From Bacteroidetes bacterium HGW-Bacteroidetes-16 (GTDB taxonomy: Bacteria; Bacteroidota; Bacteroidia; Bacteroidales; F082): a stretch of 64,000 bases of DNA. The DNA is taken from assembly GCA_002840975.1 (NCBI GenBank), contig PHDN01000002.1:124001-188000 (forward strand). The letters run 5' to 3'. A program made the position numbers and the translations under genes. The notes below the pieces were generated by a model, which was not told the origin of the DNA, ran no database searches, and saw only the letters and a program-made list of their open reading frames with translations. Shown piece after piece: positions 1 to 16,103 of the stretch; the first letter of the stretch is position 1, and every line of letters begins with the position of its first letter.

Positions 1-1738
1 CTGTAATCCGGCAATGGGTGGAGTTGCAAAAGGTCAAATTGTGCGTGAAATTGACGCCCTTGGTGGGTATTCAGGAATTGTCACCGACAAAACCATGATC
101 CAGTTCCGCATGCTAAACAAATCCAAAGGACCGGCTATGTGGAGCCCAAGGGCCCAAAGCGATCGTATGCTTTTTGCCTTGGAATGGAGACAAATGCTGG
201 AGAAAACTCCAAACCTGGACTTTTGGCAAGATACCGTTACTGAATTAATTCTTGAAGATAATCTGGTGACAGGCGTTGTTACTGGAATGGGTCATAGAAT
301 TTTTTCCAAAGCAGTAATCCTGACTGCTGGTACCTTTTTAAATGGTAAAATTCATATTGGACAAAAACAATTTGGAGGGGGCCGAATGGGAGACTCTCCT
401 TCTTATGGGATCACAGAGCAACTGTTTCATATTGGATTTGAAGCGGCACGACTTAAAACAGGAACTCCCGTTCGTGTTGACGGCCGTACGATCGATTTTT
501 CCAAAATGGAAGAACAAAAAGGGGATGAAAACCCTCAAAAATTTAGCTATACTGATACTCCACACTTAGCTCAACAGCGGAGTTGCTGGATAACCTATAC
601 TTCAAAAAAAGTACATGATATTTTGAGAATGGGCTTTTCTGATTCTCCTATGTTTGCAGGAAGAATTGAAGGAAAAGGACCCAGGTATTGTCCTTCGATT
701 GAAGATAAAATAGATCGATTTTACGATAAAACAAGACACCAATTGTTTGTAGAACCAGAGGGTTGGAATACCATAGAATATTATGTCAACGGATTTTCAT
801 CTTCTCTTCCAGATAATATCCAGCTACAAGCATTGCGTGAAATACCGGGATTTGAAAAAGCAAAAATATTCACACCAGGTTATGCTATAGAATACGACTA
901 CTTCCCTCCTACTCAGCTTAAAAATACACTTGAAACGAAACTGATTAATCACTTATATTTTGCAGGTCAAATAAATGGAACTACAGGATATGAAGAAGCA
1001 GCAGCTCAAGGAATCATAGCAGGAATCAACGCGCATTTAAAACTAAATGAAAAATTGCCTTTTGTGTTAAAACGTCAAGATGCTTACATTGGAGTGTTAA
1101 TAGATGATTTAGTTACCAAAGGCGTTGATGAACCTTATCGGCTTTTTACTTCCAGGGCTGAATACCGGACTTTGCTACGCCAGGACAATGCAGATATCCG
1201 GCTTACACCAAAAGGATATGATTTAGGATTGGCATCACAGGAAAGATTTGATAATGTAATTAAAAAGTATAACAAAATTACCGGGTTTATTCAATTTCTA
1301 AAAACAGAAGGTGTTGCACCAAAAGAAATAAATGATTGCCTCGAATCATTAGAGACCCCAATTTTACGACAACAAGTTAAAGCCTCCGATATCCTTCTTA
1401 GGCCCCAGGTTAACCTCTTTGACCTCATTGAGTCTGTTAAATCTATAAAAACTTATGTTAATACACATCAGCTTAATAAAGAAGAAATAGAAGCGACTGA
1501 AATCCATATTAAATACGAGGGATATATTCAAAAAGAATCAGACGTGGCTGACAAATTATCCAAATTGGAGAATATTTTAATCAATGACAATTTTAATTTT
1601 CACCAACTCCAATCCCTATCCACAGAGGCCAGGCAAAAACTAACCAAAATTCGTCCTTCTACTATCGGTCAAGCATCCAGGATTAGTGGTGTATCCCCGT
1701 CGGATATCAATGTATTGCTTGTGTTTTTTGGTAGATAA
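1..1738 (+). CDS. mnmG: tRNA U34 carboxymethylaminomethyl synthesis enzyme MnmG (GidA), 5' end outside window
   Basis: MnmG binds FAD and NADH and, with MnmE, installs (carboxymethyl)aminomethyl on U34 of certain tRNAs in the cytoplasm. The reading frame is already open at base 2 (residues CNPAMGG), so the N-terminal FAD-binding glycine motif lies upstream of the window. What is visible matches the family: [11 protein letters not shown] at the start, [11 protein letters not shown], the conserved stretch [19 protein letters not shown], and the helical C-terminal MnmE-binding domain with [17 protein letters not shown] near the stop. About 578 residues are present of a usual 620 or so. The next gene follows within 30 bases, with a parS site between them. 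Identification is secure; only the 5' boundary is missing. Confidence 0.96.
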
Positions 1739-1744
1739 TCCAAT

Positions 1745-1760
1745 TGTTTCACGTGAAACA
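1745..1760. promoter_or_regulatory. parS: parS centromere-like site (ParB binding)
   Basis: The 16 bases TGTTTCACGTGAAACA form a perfect palindrome identical to the widely conserved chromosomal parS consensus bound by ParB. The site lies between the mnmG stop and the first ATG of the methyltransferase gene. It can be translated as FHVKH from an upstream TTG, which is an annotation artefact. Chromosomal parS sites usually cluster near the replication origin, and gidA/mnmG is a classic origin-side gene, so location and sequence agree. ParA/ParB genes are not in the window. Confidence 0.9.
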
Positions 1761-1767
1761 TCATAAA

Positions 1768-2649
1768 ATGAAATCAACAAATGTATGCCCGGTATGCGGT
1801 TCTTTTGATATAAATCTTTTCTTGAAGACAAAAGATTATTTCCTGACAAAAGAAGAATTTTCTCTACTAAAATGTGATCAATGCGGCTACCTCTCAACCG
1901 ATCCCGTTCCGACAGAAAAAGAGCTTCCAAAATATTATAACTCAGATCAATATCTTTCGCATACCGCTGCAAATAAAGGGGTATTAAACCGCATATATGA
2001 GGTTCTCCGAACAATCAATATTAAAAGGAAATATACGCTTATTAAATCCTACAAACCGATTGGTTCCATATTAGATATAGGTTGCGGCACAGGTGAACTT
2101 CTTAATTATTTTTCAAGTCATCACTGGTCCACTAAAGGTATTGAGCCAAACAGGGAAGCAAGAGAATTAGCACAAAACTCCTATCATTTGGATGTTGATG
2201 ATGAACCTCAATTGTCGAATTTTTCACCTGAAAGTTATGATGTTATTTCAATGTGGCACGTTTTAGAACACGTTCCCGATATTAATCAAAGAATAATTCA
2301 GGTTATTAAACTACTTAAACGAGATGGAATCATAATGATCGCACTGCCGAATAACAACTCATTTGATTCAATGAAATATGGAGCTTTTTGGGCTGGGCTG
2401 GATGTTCCCCGGCATCTTCACCATTTTAACCCATCATCATTCTCTGTTTTGGCAAAAAAACACAAATTGAAAATTATTGATATCATTCCAATGAAAATGG
2501 ATGCCTACTATGTAAGTCTGCTGAGTGAAAAATACCAAAATAATTCTTTCCCTGTTTTTAGGGCATTCATAACAGGATTCATTTCAAATCTTAAAGGCGC
2601 TAAATCGAATAACTATTCAAGCATGATTTTTGTAATGAAAAAGGAATAA
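1768..2649 (+). CDS. Class I SAM-dependent methyltransferase with N-terminal zinc ribbon
   Basis: A 293-residue protein when started at the ATG at 1768. The longer frame from TTG 1744 only adds a translated parS site and is rejected. Cys7/Cys10 (CPVCG) and Cys36/Cys39 (CDQCG) form a probable zinc ribbon. ILDIGCGTG at residues 101-109 is motif I of class I methyltransferases, and SMWHVLEHV is a motif typical of the Methyltransf_11/23 groups. The ribbon-plus-methyltransferase layout is common among enzymes of sugar or polysaccharide modification, but the substrate cannot be read from the sequence. It lies 9 bases ahead of the large histidine kinase, so co-transcription is likely. Confidence 0.85.
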   Translation: MKSTNVCPVCGSFDINLFLKTKDYFLTKEEFSLLKCDQCGYLSTDPVPTEKELPKYYNSDQYLSHTAANKGVLNRIYEVLRTINIKRKYTLIKSYKPIGSILDIGCGTGELLNYFSSHHWSTKGIEPNREARELAQNSYHLDVDDEPQLSNFSPESYDVISMWHVLEHVPDINQRIIQVIKLLKRDGIIMIALPNNNSFDSMKYGAFWAGLDVPRHLHHFNPSSFSVLAKKHKLKIIDIIPMKMDAYYVSLLSEKYQNNSFPVFRAFITGFISNLKGAKSNNYSSMIFVMKKE

Positions 2650-12109: not shown

Positions 12110-13633
12110 TTATTCCTCCATGTCAGTAGAAATGCCATCATATTTAACTTCCTTTCCACCCTTGTAATCTATTGTAATTAGGGTGGTTCCATCATCATTA
12201 TATTTTTTCAATTCCCCACTTTTACGCCCCATGACAAACTCTGCTTCCATTTTAATTCGGCCGTTGGGCCACCACCACAGGTGTTTTCCATTTGGTAAAT
12301 CATCAACATACTTACCTTCAAATGCAAGACTTCCATCCGGATAGTAGGTTTTCCATGTTCCACTTCTCAATCCTTCGCTATAAGAGCCTTCCTCCCTGGA
12401 ATCACCAATTTCCAATGTCCAGAAGCCTTCCATCTTCCCCTCAAGATAATCTCCTGAAGTAATTAATTTTCCTTTATCATCAAATTCTCTATACGCCCCA
12501 TCAGGCAAACCATTGTAGAAATGCTCCTCGCGTAAAGTTTTACCGTTTGAATGGTACCAGCGCCAAAGGCTGTCTGGCTTTCCGTTGATATACTTACCAA
12601 TTTGCTCCAATTGCCCTTTTTGATAATAAAACTCCCAAATCTTTTCTCTCAAATCGTCCCTGTAAACTCCCGTTGCTTTTAATTTACCATTGGGATAAAA
12701 TTCTTTCCAGAGGCCCTGACGTTTACCATCGTCCGTCATAATTCCTTCTGCCACTATTTTTCCTTTTCTAAAAATAAATGACTTTTCAACCTCTCCTGTT
12801 TCGTTATACTCTCGGCGCACTCCTTCAGGAATGCCTTCTTTGGAGTACGTAGATACTACCTTAATTTTCCCACTTGGATAATAATCGGTACGCATATCCA
12901 ATTTAACCAACTCTTCGGCTTTTTCCTGTTTTTCACCATCCACATATTTTGTAGCAGAAACCAGGTTTCCGGCCCTATCATACTCTTTCCAATAGCCGTC
13001 CTCCAAACCATTATTATACGATCCTTCTTTTTGTATTGCAATTTCATCATCAAAAAACCACTTCCATCTTCCATGTCGTAGTCCATTTGAATTGGTTCTG
13101 TTTATTCGTTCTCTTTCAACAACATAACCTTTTTTATAATAAACCAGTTGAATAATATTTCCTAAGGTATCATAATCGCGGGCAATTCCCTCTTCCAAAC
13201 CATCAACAAAAGGTATTTTTGATTTGATCTTTCGGTCAGCTGATAATACATAGCTTTCACCTTGCTTCACATCTTGTACAAAACGTTCACGGATGATTTC
13301 ATTGCCTTGATAAGTTGAGCGAAAGCCGTTTTTCTTACCTTGCGTGTAATCTATTTCAAGTATAAGTTGTCCTTCTTCACTATAAAAACGCCAAATACTG
13401 TCGAGTAAGAAATTTTTTCTGTTTCCCTCCGATTTCAAAATTCCATCAGTATAGTAGTTTTTCCAATACCCATCAGGTTTTCCTGAAACCATGTAACCTT
13501 CACTAATGACGACGCTATCAGGAGAATAAAAAACGATATAACCTTCACCAATCGACTCTCCTGTAGTTTGTCCGTTGAGGTTCATTTGAACAAAAATCAG
13601 TGTTAATATCCAGAAAAAGTTTTTTTTATTCAT
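12110..13633 (-). CDS. Exported MORN/YwqK-type repeat protein
   Basis: A 507-residue protein with an N-terminal signal segment (to about residue 22). The rest is made of about 20 MORN-like units with the pattern G-x-W-x-x-Y-x-x-x-G-x-L-x-x-x-G, for example GYWKNYYTDGILKSEG. Such repeats form elongated beta surfaces; databases often label them YwqK antitoxins, but no toxin gene is adjacent. It overlaps the upstream lipoprotein gene by 8 bases, so the two are probably translationally coupled. It probably acts at the cell envelope. The biochemical role is unknown. Confidence 0.82.
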   Translation of the reverse strand: MNKKNFFWILTLIFVQMNLNGQTTGESIGEGYIVFYSPDSVVISEGYMVSGKPDGYWKNYYTDGILKSEGNRKNFLLDSIWRFYSEEGQLILEIDYTQGKKNGFRSTYQGNEIIRERFVQDVKQGESYVLSADRKIKSKIPFVDGLEEGIARDYDTLGNIIQLVYYKKGYVVERERINRTNSNGLRHGRWKWFFDDEIAIQKEGSYNNGLEDGYWKEYDRAGNLVSATKYVDGEKQEKAEELVKLDMRTDYYPSGKIKVVSTYSKEGIPEGVRREYNETGEVEKSFIFRKGKIVAEGIMTDDGKRQGLWKEFYPNGKLKATGVYRDDLREKIWEFYYQKGQLEQIGKYINGKPDSLWRWYHSNGKTLREEHFYNGLPDGAYREFDDKGKLITSGDYLEGKMEGFWTLEIGDSREEGSYSEGLRSGTWKTYYPDGSLAFEGKYVDDLPNGKHLWWWPNGRIKMEAEFVMGRKSGELKKYNDDGTTLITIDYKGGKEVKYDGISTDMEE

Positions 13634-14182: not shown

Positions 14183-15118
14183 CTAAATTATTCCCAACTT
14201 TTTTGAAATGTCAAGCATCCGAATAATAGGCTTCCTGGCCAATTCAATTGTTTCAGCGTCTAAAGATATGGCAGGTTTTCCATTTTTCAACGCAAGATAC
14301 AACTTTTCCATGTTATTAAGTTTCATATATGGGCAATCGTTACAAGAACAAGTGCTATCGGATGGCACAATGTAAAAATCCTTCTCCGGGGAAAGCTTTT
14401 TCATTTGATGCAAAATGCCTGATTCAGTAGCAACAATGAATTCTTTGGAAGTATCTTTTTGAGTAAAATTAATCATTCCTGTGGTGGATCCAATATAAGC
14501 TGCCAATGTCAGAACGGGAGCACTACATTCGGGATGCGCAATAACTTTGGCATCCGGATGCTTTTGTTTCAGTTCTATAATGGCCTCGGTATTAAGAATA
14601 TTATGTACTTCGCAGGTGCCATTCCATAAAATCATATTTCGTCCGGTTAACCGGTTGATATAGCCACCCAAATTTTTATCAGGGGCAAAAATTATTTTTT
14701 GATCTGTTGGAAATGATTCTACAATTTGAACGGCATTACCCGAAGTACATACCACATCAGTAAGCGTTTTAATGGCCGCTGTGGTATTGATATAACTTAT
14801 TACGATGTGATCAGGATGCTGTTCCTTAAAAAGCTTAAAATCTTCGTAAGGGCACGAGTCGGCCAATGAACATCCAGCATTCATATCGGGCAAAACCACA
14901 GGGATATTGGGATTAAGCATTTTAGCCGTTTCCGCCATAAAATGCACTCCGGCAAATACAATCATATTTGAATTGGTTTCAGAAGCTTTTTGCGCCAGCC
15001 CTAAACTATCGCCAACATAATCAGCTATATCCTGAATTTCCGGAATTTGATAAAAATGTGCCAGAATCAAAGCATTTTTTTCTTTCTTTAGTCTCAGTAT
15101 TTCGTTTCTATAATTCAT
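14183..15118 (-). CDS. nadA: Quinolinate synthase NadA
   Basis: Condenses iminoaspartate with dihydroxyacetone phosphate to quinolinate in NAD biosynthesis, using an oxygen-sensitive 4Fe-4S cluster. The 311-residue length is normal for the short bacterial type. Family motifs are visible: AHFYQIPEIQDIADYVGDSL, Cys83 in NAGCSLADSCP, VCTSGNA, Cys169 in NGTCEVH, HPEC, TESGILHQM, and the C-terminal CSCNDCPYMK that gives the third cluster ligand. nadB and nadC are not in the window. The upstream side is a 535-base AT-rich gap. Confidence 0.96.
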   Translation of the reverse strand: MNYRNEILRLKKEKNALILAHFYQIPEIQDIADYVGDSLGLAQKASETNSNMIVFAGVHFMAETAKMLNPNIPVVLPDMNAGCSLADSCPYEDFKLFKEQHPDHIVISYINTTAAIKTLTDVVCTSGNAVQIVESFPTDQKIIFAPDKNLGGYINRLTGRNMILWNGTCEVHNILNTEAIIELKQKHPDAKVIAHPECSAPVLTLAAYIGSTTGMINFTQKDTSKEFIVATESGILHQMKKLSPEKDFYIVPSDSTCSCNDCPYMKLNNMEKLYLALKNGKPAISLDAETIELARKPIIRMLDISKKLGII

Positions 15119-15653
15119 CTCTTATTAACTATGAACAATTAAGCTTTATTATATTTTTTATTTAATTAAATAAATGTTAATATTTATAGCACTGTTCAAA
15201 TGTTTGATTACTTGTATCCAATTTGTTTGGATAATTTAAAAAGACCATTTTTTTAACACTGCATTAACAAAATAACTTTGTTTAAATATTTTTAAATCAA
15301 AGATATAGTCACTTATTAACATCCTTATTATTTTTAATTGTGGTAATAAAAATATCCTGTTGATTGAATAGTAAAGTTGTTCATTAAAAAGGGAAACTAT
15401 TTAAAACTTTTATTAAAAAAAGGAAACCTCACGACTGTCAAATTTGGATGTTAATAAACCTCGATTTACTAAGTAATTATCAACAAAAATAAGCAGATAT
15501 TAACAATAAAATAGTGATAACAGATAAAAATTTGAATGTAAATACATTAGGATAAGATGAAGTAAAAAGGTAAATATTCAAAGCAAATGGTTTTCAGTTG
15601 ATTTAATCATTGCCCTTTAAAAATGTCTAAATTTGTAGCATATTTTTTCAACA
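15119..15653. other. AT-rich gene-free region with inverted repeats and DnaA-box-like words
   Basis: No reading frame of note. The region is very AT-rich. It contains TTATTAACATCC at 15313-15324 and its exact reverse complement at 15446-15457. It also contains a hairpin ATCCAA/TTGGAT at 15216-15232, and TTATCAACA (15477-15485) and TTATCCAAA (minus strand, 15238-15230), each one base from the DnaA box TTATCCACA. It carries a plus-strand TAACTTTG at 15273-15280 and a minus-strand TATCTTTG at 15305-15298 that could be promoters. It separates the divergent nadA and rpiB genes. An origin or a non-coding RNA is possible but unproven. Confidence 0.45.
15628..15635 (+). promoter_or_regulatory. -7 box upstream of rpiB
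   Basis: TAAATTTG matches TAnnTTTG and ends 18 bases before the rpiB ATG. A TTG at 15610-15612 lies 15 bases upstream, somewhat closer than usual. Confidence 0.5.
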
Positions 15654-16103
15654 ATGACAGAAAACAGCATGATTTTAACTATGGCATCCGATCATGGTGG
15701 ATTTGCCATGAAAACTTTTTTAAAAGAGAAACTCGAAAGATCGGGATACACCGTGTTTGATTTTGGGACCAACTCGGATGAAAGTGTTGATTATCCTGAT
15801 ATGATTCATCCACTCGCGAGTGCCATTAATAAAGGGGAATTTGAACGTGGAATCATTCTTTGTGGAAGTGGCAACGGAGCTCAGATGACCGCCAACAAAT
15901 ATCCCAACGTGCGGGCCGGATTGTGCTGGGATGTACTACAGGCAGAGTTAATCAGGCGGCACAACGATGCGAATGTTTTGTCGTTACCAGGCCGGTTTAT
16001 TTCGATGGAAGAAGCCTGGAAAATAACAGAAATGTTTCTTAACACCTCATTTGACGGTGGGCGTCATTTAACTCGTGTTAATAAAATAAATAAGTTAATT
16101 TAA
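15654..16103 (+). CDS. rpiB: Ribose-5-phosphate isomerase B (RpiB/LacAB family)
   Basis: Interconverts ribose 5-phosphate and ribulose 5-phosphate in the pentose phosphate pathway. The 149 residues match the family length. ASDHGGF (Asp13, His14) is the phosphate/substrate motif; Cys70 in IILCGSGNGAQM is the catalytic base region; and NKYPNVRAGLC and the C-terminal arginine region are typical. The start ATG at 15654 is well spaced after a -7 box. The LutB-like gene begins 10 bases downstream, indicating an operon. LacA/LacB-type specificity cannot be excluded, but rpiB is the default in this setting. Confidence 0.92.
   Translation: MTENSMILTMASDHGGFAMKTFLKEKLERSGYTVFDFGTNSDESVDYPDMIHPLASAINKGEFERGIILCGSGNGAQMTANKYPNVRAGLCWDVLQAELIRRHNDANVLSLPGRFISMEEAWKITEMFLNTSFDGGRHLTRVNKINKLI

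Follow-up and report, generated by a model that had tools for sequence, protein, structure and literature searches.

A 16-bp palindrome lies in the short gap behind mnmG in this Bacteroidota chromosome, and the question is whether it is a centromere site (parS), the beginning of the next gene or an operator. The window, meaning the whole stretch of 64,000 nt that was analysed, corresponds to C23:124001-188000 of the genome G000 (3.94 Mb, 46 contigs, 96.6% complete). The palindrome and its immediate neighbours were as follows.

1..1738, + strand: mnmG (gidA), 3' part (Pfam GIDA 3e-141, SAM_GIDA_C; full gene 622 aa)
1745..1760, no strand: exact match to the 16-bp parS consensus, between mnmG and the methyltransferase gene
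1768..2649, + strand: SAM-dependent methyltransferase with an N-terminal CPVC motif (Pfam Methyltransf_23; probable start ATG 1768)

Further out, ybeY (identified by eye from the sequence) lay upstream of mnmG, and a sensor histidine kinase gene lay downstream of the methyltransferase gene.

The sequence at 1745-1760, TGTTTCACGTGAAACA, was a perfect palindrome with 16/16 identity to the parS consensus, as an earlier note on the window had claimed. The Pfam match confirmed that the gene it adjoins is mnmG, and the site started 6 bases past the mnmG stop codon. The gene itself begins about 130 bp before the window, at G000:C23:123870. In front of it a second parS, TGTTCCACGTGAAACA, with a 15/16 match, was found at C23:123847-123862 (139 to 154 bp before window base 1), ending 7 bp before the mnmG ATG. 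With an exact site after the stop codon and a one-mismatch site before the ATG, mnmG is thus bracketed by a pair of parS sites, each less than 10 bp from the gene, 1.9 kb apart on its opposite sides. The earlier note had named only the exact site, because the twin was hidden beyond the edge of the window.

The scan that the earlier note had proposed, of the whole genome for the 16-mer with up to two mismatches, gave one exact match, one match with one mismatch and four with two, the last on other contigs. The only two sites with at most one mismatch in the 3.94 Mb were those flanking mnmG; they were paired and not scattered. The reversed pattern, used as a control on the whole genome at the same threshold, gave two matches, which suggested that the two-mismatch sites were near the chance level. 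Within the window, four matches with up to three mismatches were found against 0.51 expected, the three besides the exact site all having three mismatches. The remaining two- and three-mismatch matches in window and genome were taken as chance level. In a common 1.3 Mb, parS gave 146 matches and each of 12 scrambled palindromes gave 0 or 1. A chance match was ruled out by these scrambled palindromes, the shuffle counts and the reversed pattern.

One ParB (302 aa; TIGR00180, E 2.8e-53) was encoded in the genome, on contig C35, directly after a ParA of 266 aa that had a Walker-type KGGVGKTT motif. The ParB had a GERR motif and aligned to the solved structures of ParB (7bnk) and Noc (7ng0). Two recognition positions separate parS from NBS specificity (PMC7383237). 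At these the protein had Arg (in GKNR) and Gly (in SGHAR), as in ParB, whereas Noc has Gln and Arg. As judged from the alignment, the recognition residues are of the parS type and not of the NBS type. The Noc-binding site (NBS) of nucleoid occlusion is a related palindrome with a related protein family, but both the site sequence and the ParB residues here were those of parS.

Neither Smc (no SMC_prok_B match above the cut-off) nor ScpA (no match) was detected in the 96.6%-complete genome, while the control genomes were positive. The combination of Smc and ScpA that goes with an Smc-loading centromere was therefore not found in G000. This agreed with excerpts of a study of gut bacteria, in which no condensin was recognised in two Bacteroidetes (PMC10197239).

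With the genome in 46 contigs its global GC skew could not be drawn, and skew was computed on contigs C23 (265 kb) and C35 (207 kb), plus samples in relatives. On C23 the cumulative skew was lowest at 139324 (window 15324), at a distance of 13.6 kb from parS. The change from minus to plus was significant (z 8.5-8.9, p <= 0.003 by block permutation), with a weak amplitude of about -0.03 to +0.02. Contig C35, which carries dnaA and parAB, showed no skew flip (p > 0.5). The earlier note had taken the adjacency to mnmG as a sign of an origin-proximal position. The skew minimum bore this out, but dnaA and parAB were on a separate contig that did not flip. Of the grounds that the same note had named for giving up its reading, two could be checked by computation: a genome without parB and exact copies spread evenly around the chromosome. 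Neither held, since a single ParB with a neighbouring ParA was encoded, the sites were paired and the skew minimum was 13.6 kb away.

The minimum fell between two divergent genes.

14183..15118, - strand: nadA, quinolinate synthase (NCBIfam NadA 1.1e-131), a recurrent neighbour in the mnmG/parS region of Bacteroidia
15119..15653, no strand: candidate oriC, nadA/rpiB intergenic region, 21.7% GC, holding the skew minimum at 15324
15654..16103, + strand: rpiB, ribose-5-phosphate isomerase B (NCBIfam subfamily model PRK05571, over the cut-off), the right flank

These 535 bp held the lowest-GC 500-bp window of C23, and the region was AT-rich, intergenic and at the skew minimum, as looked for in an oriC. 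It contained two weak DnaA-box-like sequences, TTATCAACA and TTATCCAAA, each with one mismatch, against 0.45 expected; a strict cluster of DnaA boxes at this skew minimum was not found. We consider 15119-15653 the best oriC candidate, with moderate confidence, and the origin most likely lies in this AT-rich region rather than at dnaA; its exact position is a prediction. Next to the candidate origin, the protein encoded at 12110-13633 (- strand) gave a partial, below-cut-off, repeat-like match to the leptospiral adhesin model LIC20035.

Of 53 sampled Bacteroidia genomes with nadA, roughly half had it no more than about 31 kb away from mnmG or its parS. In 22 such genomes, the pooled sequence upstream of nadA contained 51 DnaA boxes against 4.8 expected, 16 of the 51 coming from one genome alone. 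The figure for 20 control genomes, in which proximity of nadA to mnmG had not been shown, was 9 against 3.4 expected. At locus L234 of a relative (G034:C128:14942-15641), 16 DnaA boxes with at most one mismatch were present in the 700 bp upstream of nadA. This region is a strong oriC candidate, about 4 kb from its parS.

Two complete or near-complete relatives were used to place the sites on larger maps. In G031 (2.85-Mb contig) the minus-to-plus turn of the skew fell in the interval 1.33-1.36 Mb, and mnmG with its parS sites was at 1.347 Mb; dnaA was at 0.920 Mb and parB at 2.080 Mb. In G072 (a single 2.27-Mb contig) the skew minimum was at 1.4526 Mb, mnmG at 1.444 Mb and dnaA at 1.135 Mb; the parS before mnmG was a two-mismatch site. 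Around mnmG in another relative, G019, the skew was noisy, with no clear flip. Of the Bacteroidia genomes with listed sites, only G031 had parS on a contig together with dnaA or parB, and there no parS came closer to either than 400 kb. dnaA was rejected as an origin marker, as C35 had no flip and, in G031 and G072, about 430 and 310 kb separated dnaA from it. The parS sites flanking mnmG mark the origin far better than dnaA, and their position recurs across the phylum.

Among 80 Bacteroidia genomes, TGTTYCACGTGRAACA was present in 51, nearly all with 1-3 copies, and the reversed pattern in none. As about a third of the sampled Bacteroidia are without it, the motif or its location varies. A parS was within 2 kb of mnmG in 37 of the 42 genomes with listed sites, a count based on positions transcribed by hand. 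Of the other five, three gave no verdict owing to contig breaks or an absent mnmG. In the remaining two (G051:C11 and G025:C1) parS and mnmG shared a contig but were 25 and 43 kb apart, and such natural separations could reveal whether the origin follows parS or mnmG.

The arrangement extended further. In an order- and phylum-wide sample, 45 of 49 loci had mnmG in their flanking 1.5 kb, and parS pairs were often about 1.9 kb apart (the length of mnmG), outside Bacteroidia too. At 80 named Bacteroidota loci, parS with up to two mismatches was close to mnmG in 65 and on both sides of it in 36. Homologues of ybeY were present at about 70 of these loci and those of the methyltransferase at about 60; in relatives, the latter was directly 3' of mnmG in 55 of 80. 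The order ybeY-mnmG-methyltransferase is thus widely conserved. Several flavobacterial loci (among them L013, L059, L074 and L086, from Olleya, Tenacibaculum and Polaribacter) had no parS with up to two mismatches within about 8 kb of mnmG, and have either a diverged motif or a relocated centromere.

The palindrome could instead be coding, with the methyltransferase starting at TTG 1744 or at a GTG inside it. The frame from TTG 1744 is indeed open across parS and reads MFHVKHHKMKST..., and the twin likewise translates as MFHVKH ahead of the mnmG ATG. Locus L011 had no ATG between parS and the homologous protein, only TTG or GTG, so that alternative starts are possible in places. Against this, an ATG at 1768 closely precedes the CPVC motif. 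In addition, among the 33 relatives with parS between the two genes, the frame was closed across parS in 21 and an ATG was found downstream of parS in 25. Judged from the sequence, the true start is likely ATG 1768, downstream of parS, and the coding alternative is quite unlikely; parS function would in any case be independent of this choice. The earlier note's statement that the site is mis-read as a gene start was right about the frame, which reads MFHVKH, but is too strong as a whole, since the better support for ATG 1768 makes translation of the site no more than a candidate start-site artefact. A transcription-factor operator for mnmG and the methyltransferase gene, with an incidental match to parS, would fit the position of both sites: each stands 7 bp ahead of an ATG, and a protein bound there could obstruct transcription or initiation. 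This reading is very unlikely. The sequence does not differ from the parS consensus, the genome encodes a ParB whose residues are of the parS type, and the skew flips at the locus in the genome itself and in relatives. The sites keep with mnmG, yet in many relatives they are multiplied up- or downstream at varied distances.

A parS may also allow ParB to modulate mnmG, coupling tRNA modification to the origin, in which case the bracket would be conserved for regulation. Bracketing at nearly fixed distances across the classes of the phylum is in keeping with this, and ParB repression of parS-adjacent promoters is reported for P. aeruginosa in an excerpt of one study (PMC5521831). On the other hand, the number and distance of the sites vary, as in G051 and G025, and the stable synteny of ybeY, mnmG and the methyltransferase gene would alone hold them in place. 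A regulatory role of the sites on mnmG is possible, if unsupported, and conservation for regulation is unlikely. The weak skew and the fragmented assembly would permit parS to be near the terminus or in mid-arm, with the C23 minimum a local artefact. This was very improbable in view of the significant change point on C23, the coincidence of parS with the change from minus to plus skew in G031 and G072, and the published mnmG-adjacent origins in Flavobacteriaceae.

We interpreted 1745-1760 as a parS centromere site, one member of the pair that encloses mnmG in the chromosomal region near the origin, with a probability of about 0.93. The sites, the ParA and ParB genes, the skew flip and the conservation were observed. 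The consensus match came with a cognate ParA and ParB and with parS-type residues; clustering near the origin was seen in a fragmented genome, and the relatives agreed. By analogy with the known ParABS pathway we infer ParB binding, spreading and a function in segregation. ParB, made from C35 beside ParA, would bind each palindrome as a dimer. Dimers loaded at both palindromes would close as CTP-dependent clamps and slide out over mnmG and its neighbours, forming a partition complex. ParA would then move this complex, making the freshly copied origin region the first part to segregate. The bracket is probably an old parS pair that stable origin-proximal synteny has kept in place. The reading of the earlier note was essentially right.

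In its identical 16-bp site, ParA-ParB pair, parS-type specificity residues and origin-proximal location, the system was like the chromosomal ParABS of Bacillus subtilis (Spo0J) and Caulobacter (ParB). Unlike in those, parAB and dnaA were not beside the sites, and Smc-ScpA was not detected. In excerpts of the reports on Mariniflexile litorale (PMC11278836) and Algorimicrobium (PMC12843772), oriC is adjacent to mnmG, in agreement with GC skew; the Mariniflexile figure legend swaps oriC and ter relative to the text. An oriC away from dnaA is described in the excerpts for Mariniflexile and for Prevotella intermedia (PMC4755523), the latter stating that this is common in Bacteroidetes. The excerpted accounts of these three origins are without parS sites, and, unlike those origins, the best oriC candidate here was 13.6 kb from mnmG, beside nadA. 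According to excerpts of the Hi-C study of gut bacteria, including Bacteroides caecimuris and Muribaculum, parS clusters mark ori, which is not always coincident with dnaA (PMC10197239); the study included only two Bacteroidetes, and its excerpts leave mnmG unmentioned.

As the literature has mnmG-adjacent, dnaA-remote origins and parS clusters that mark them, the site is ordinary known biology. The present analysis adds the second site, the bracketing of mnmG across the phylum, the candidate oriC between nadA and rpiB, the lack of a recognisable Smc or ScpA, and a centromere separate from dnaA and parAB. We found no literature description of parS sites bracketing mnmG in a search that left the primary survey (Livny et al. 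2007) outside, and novelty is unproven. A stronger claim would be that the segregating origin region of Bacteroidota is defined, irrespective of dnaA and parAB, by an ancient, phylum-wide centromere cassette, ybeY-parS-mnmG-parS-methyltransferase, which works via ParA-ParB without Smc-ScpAB, and that the bracket was selected and not just inherited with the synteny. Taken jointly, these statements are doubtful, and we offer them tentatively.

In draft Bacteroidota genomes, an mnmG bracketed by parS is a simple sequence landmark by which to locate the origin; dnaA misleads when taken as the zero point. Growth-rate (peak-to-trough) estimates and chromosome maps rely on the correct origin. The locus further indicates that a lineage with no recognised Smc-ScpAB condensin has a ParABS centromere.

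Two relatives showed other arrangements of parS. In G066 (C1:1086925-1086940, locus L194) a parS was within the mnmG coding sequence, with two more upstream. In G030 (C24:13202-13810) seven parS were spaced about 99 bp apart, and more were found on C40, C28 and C43, 12 in total. This suggests a tandem-amplified centromere that was fragmented by the assembly.
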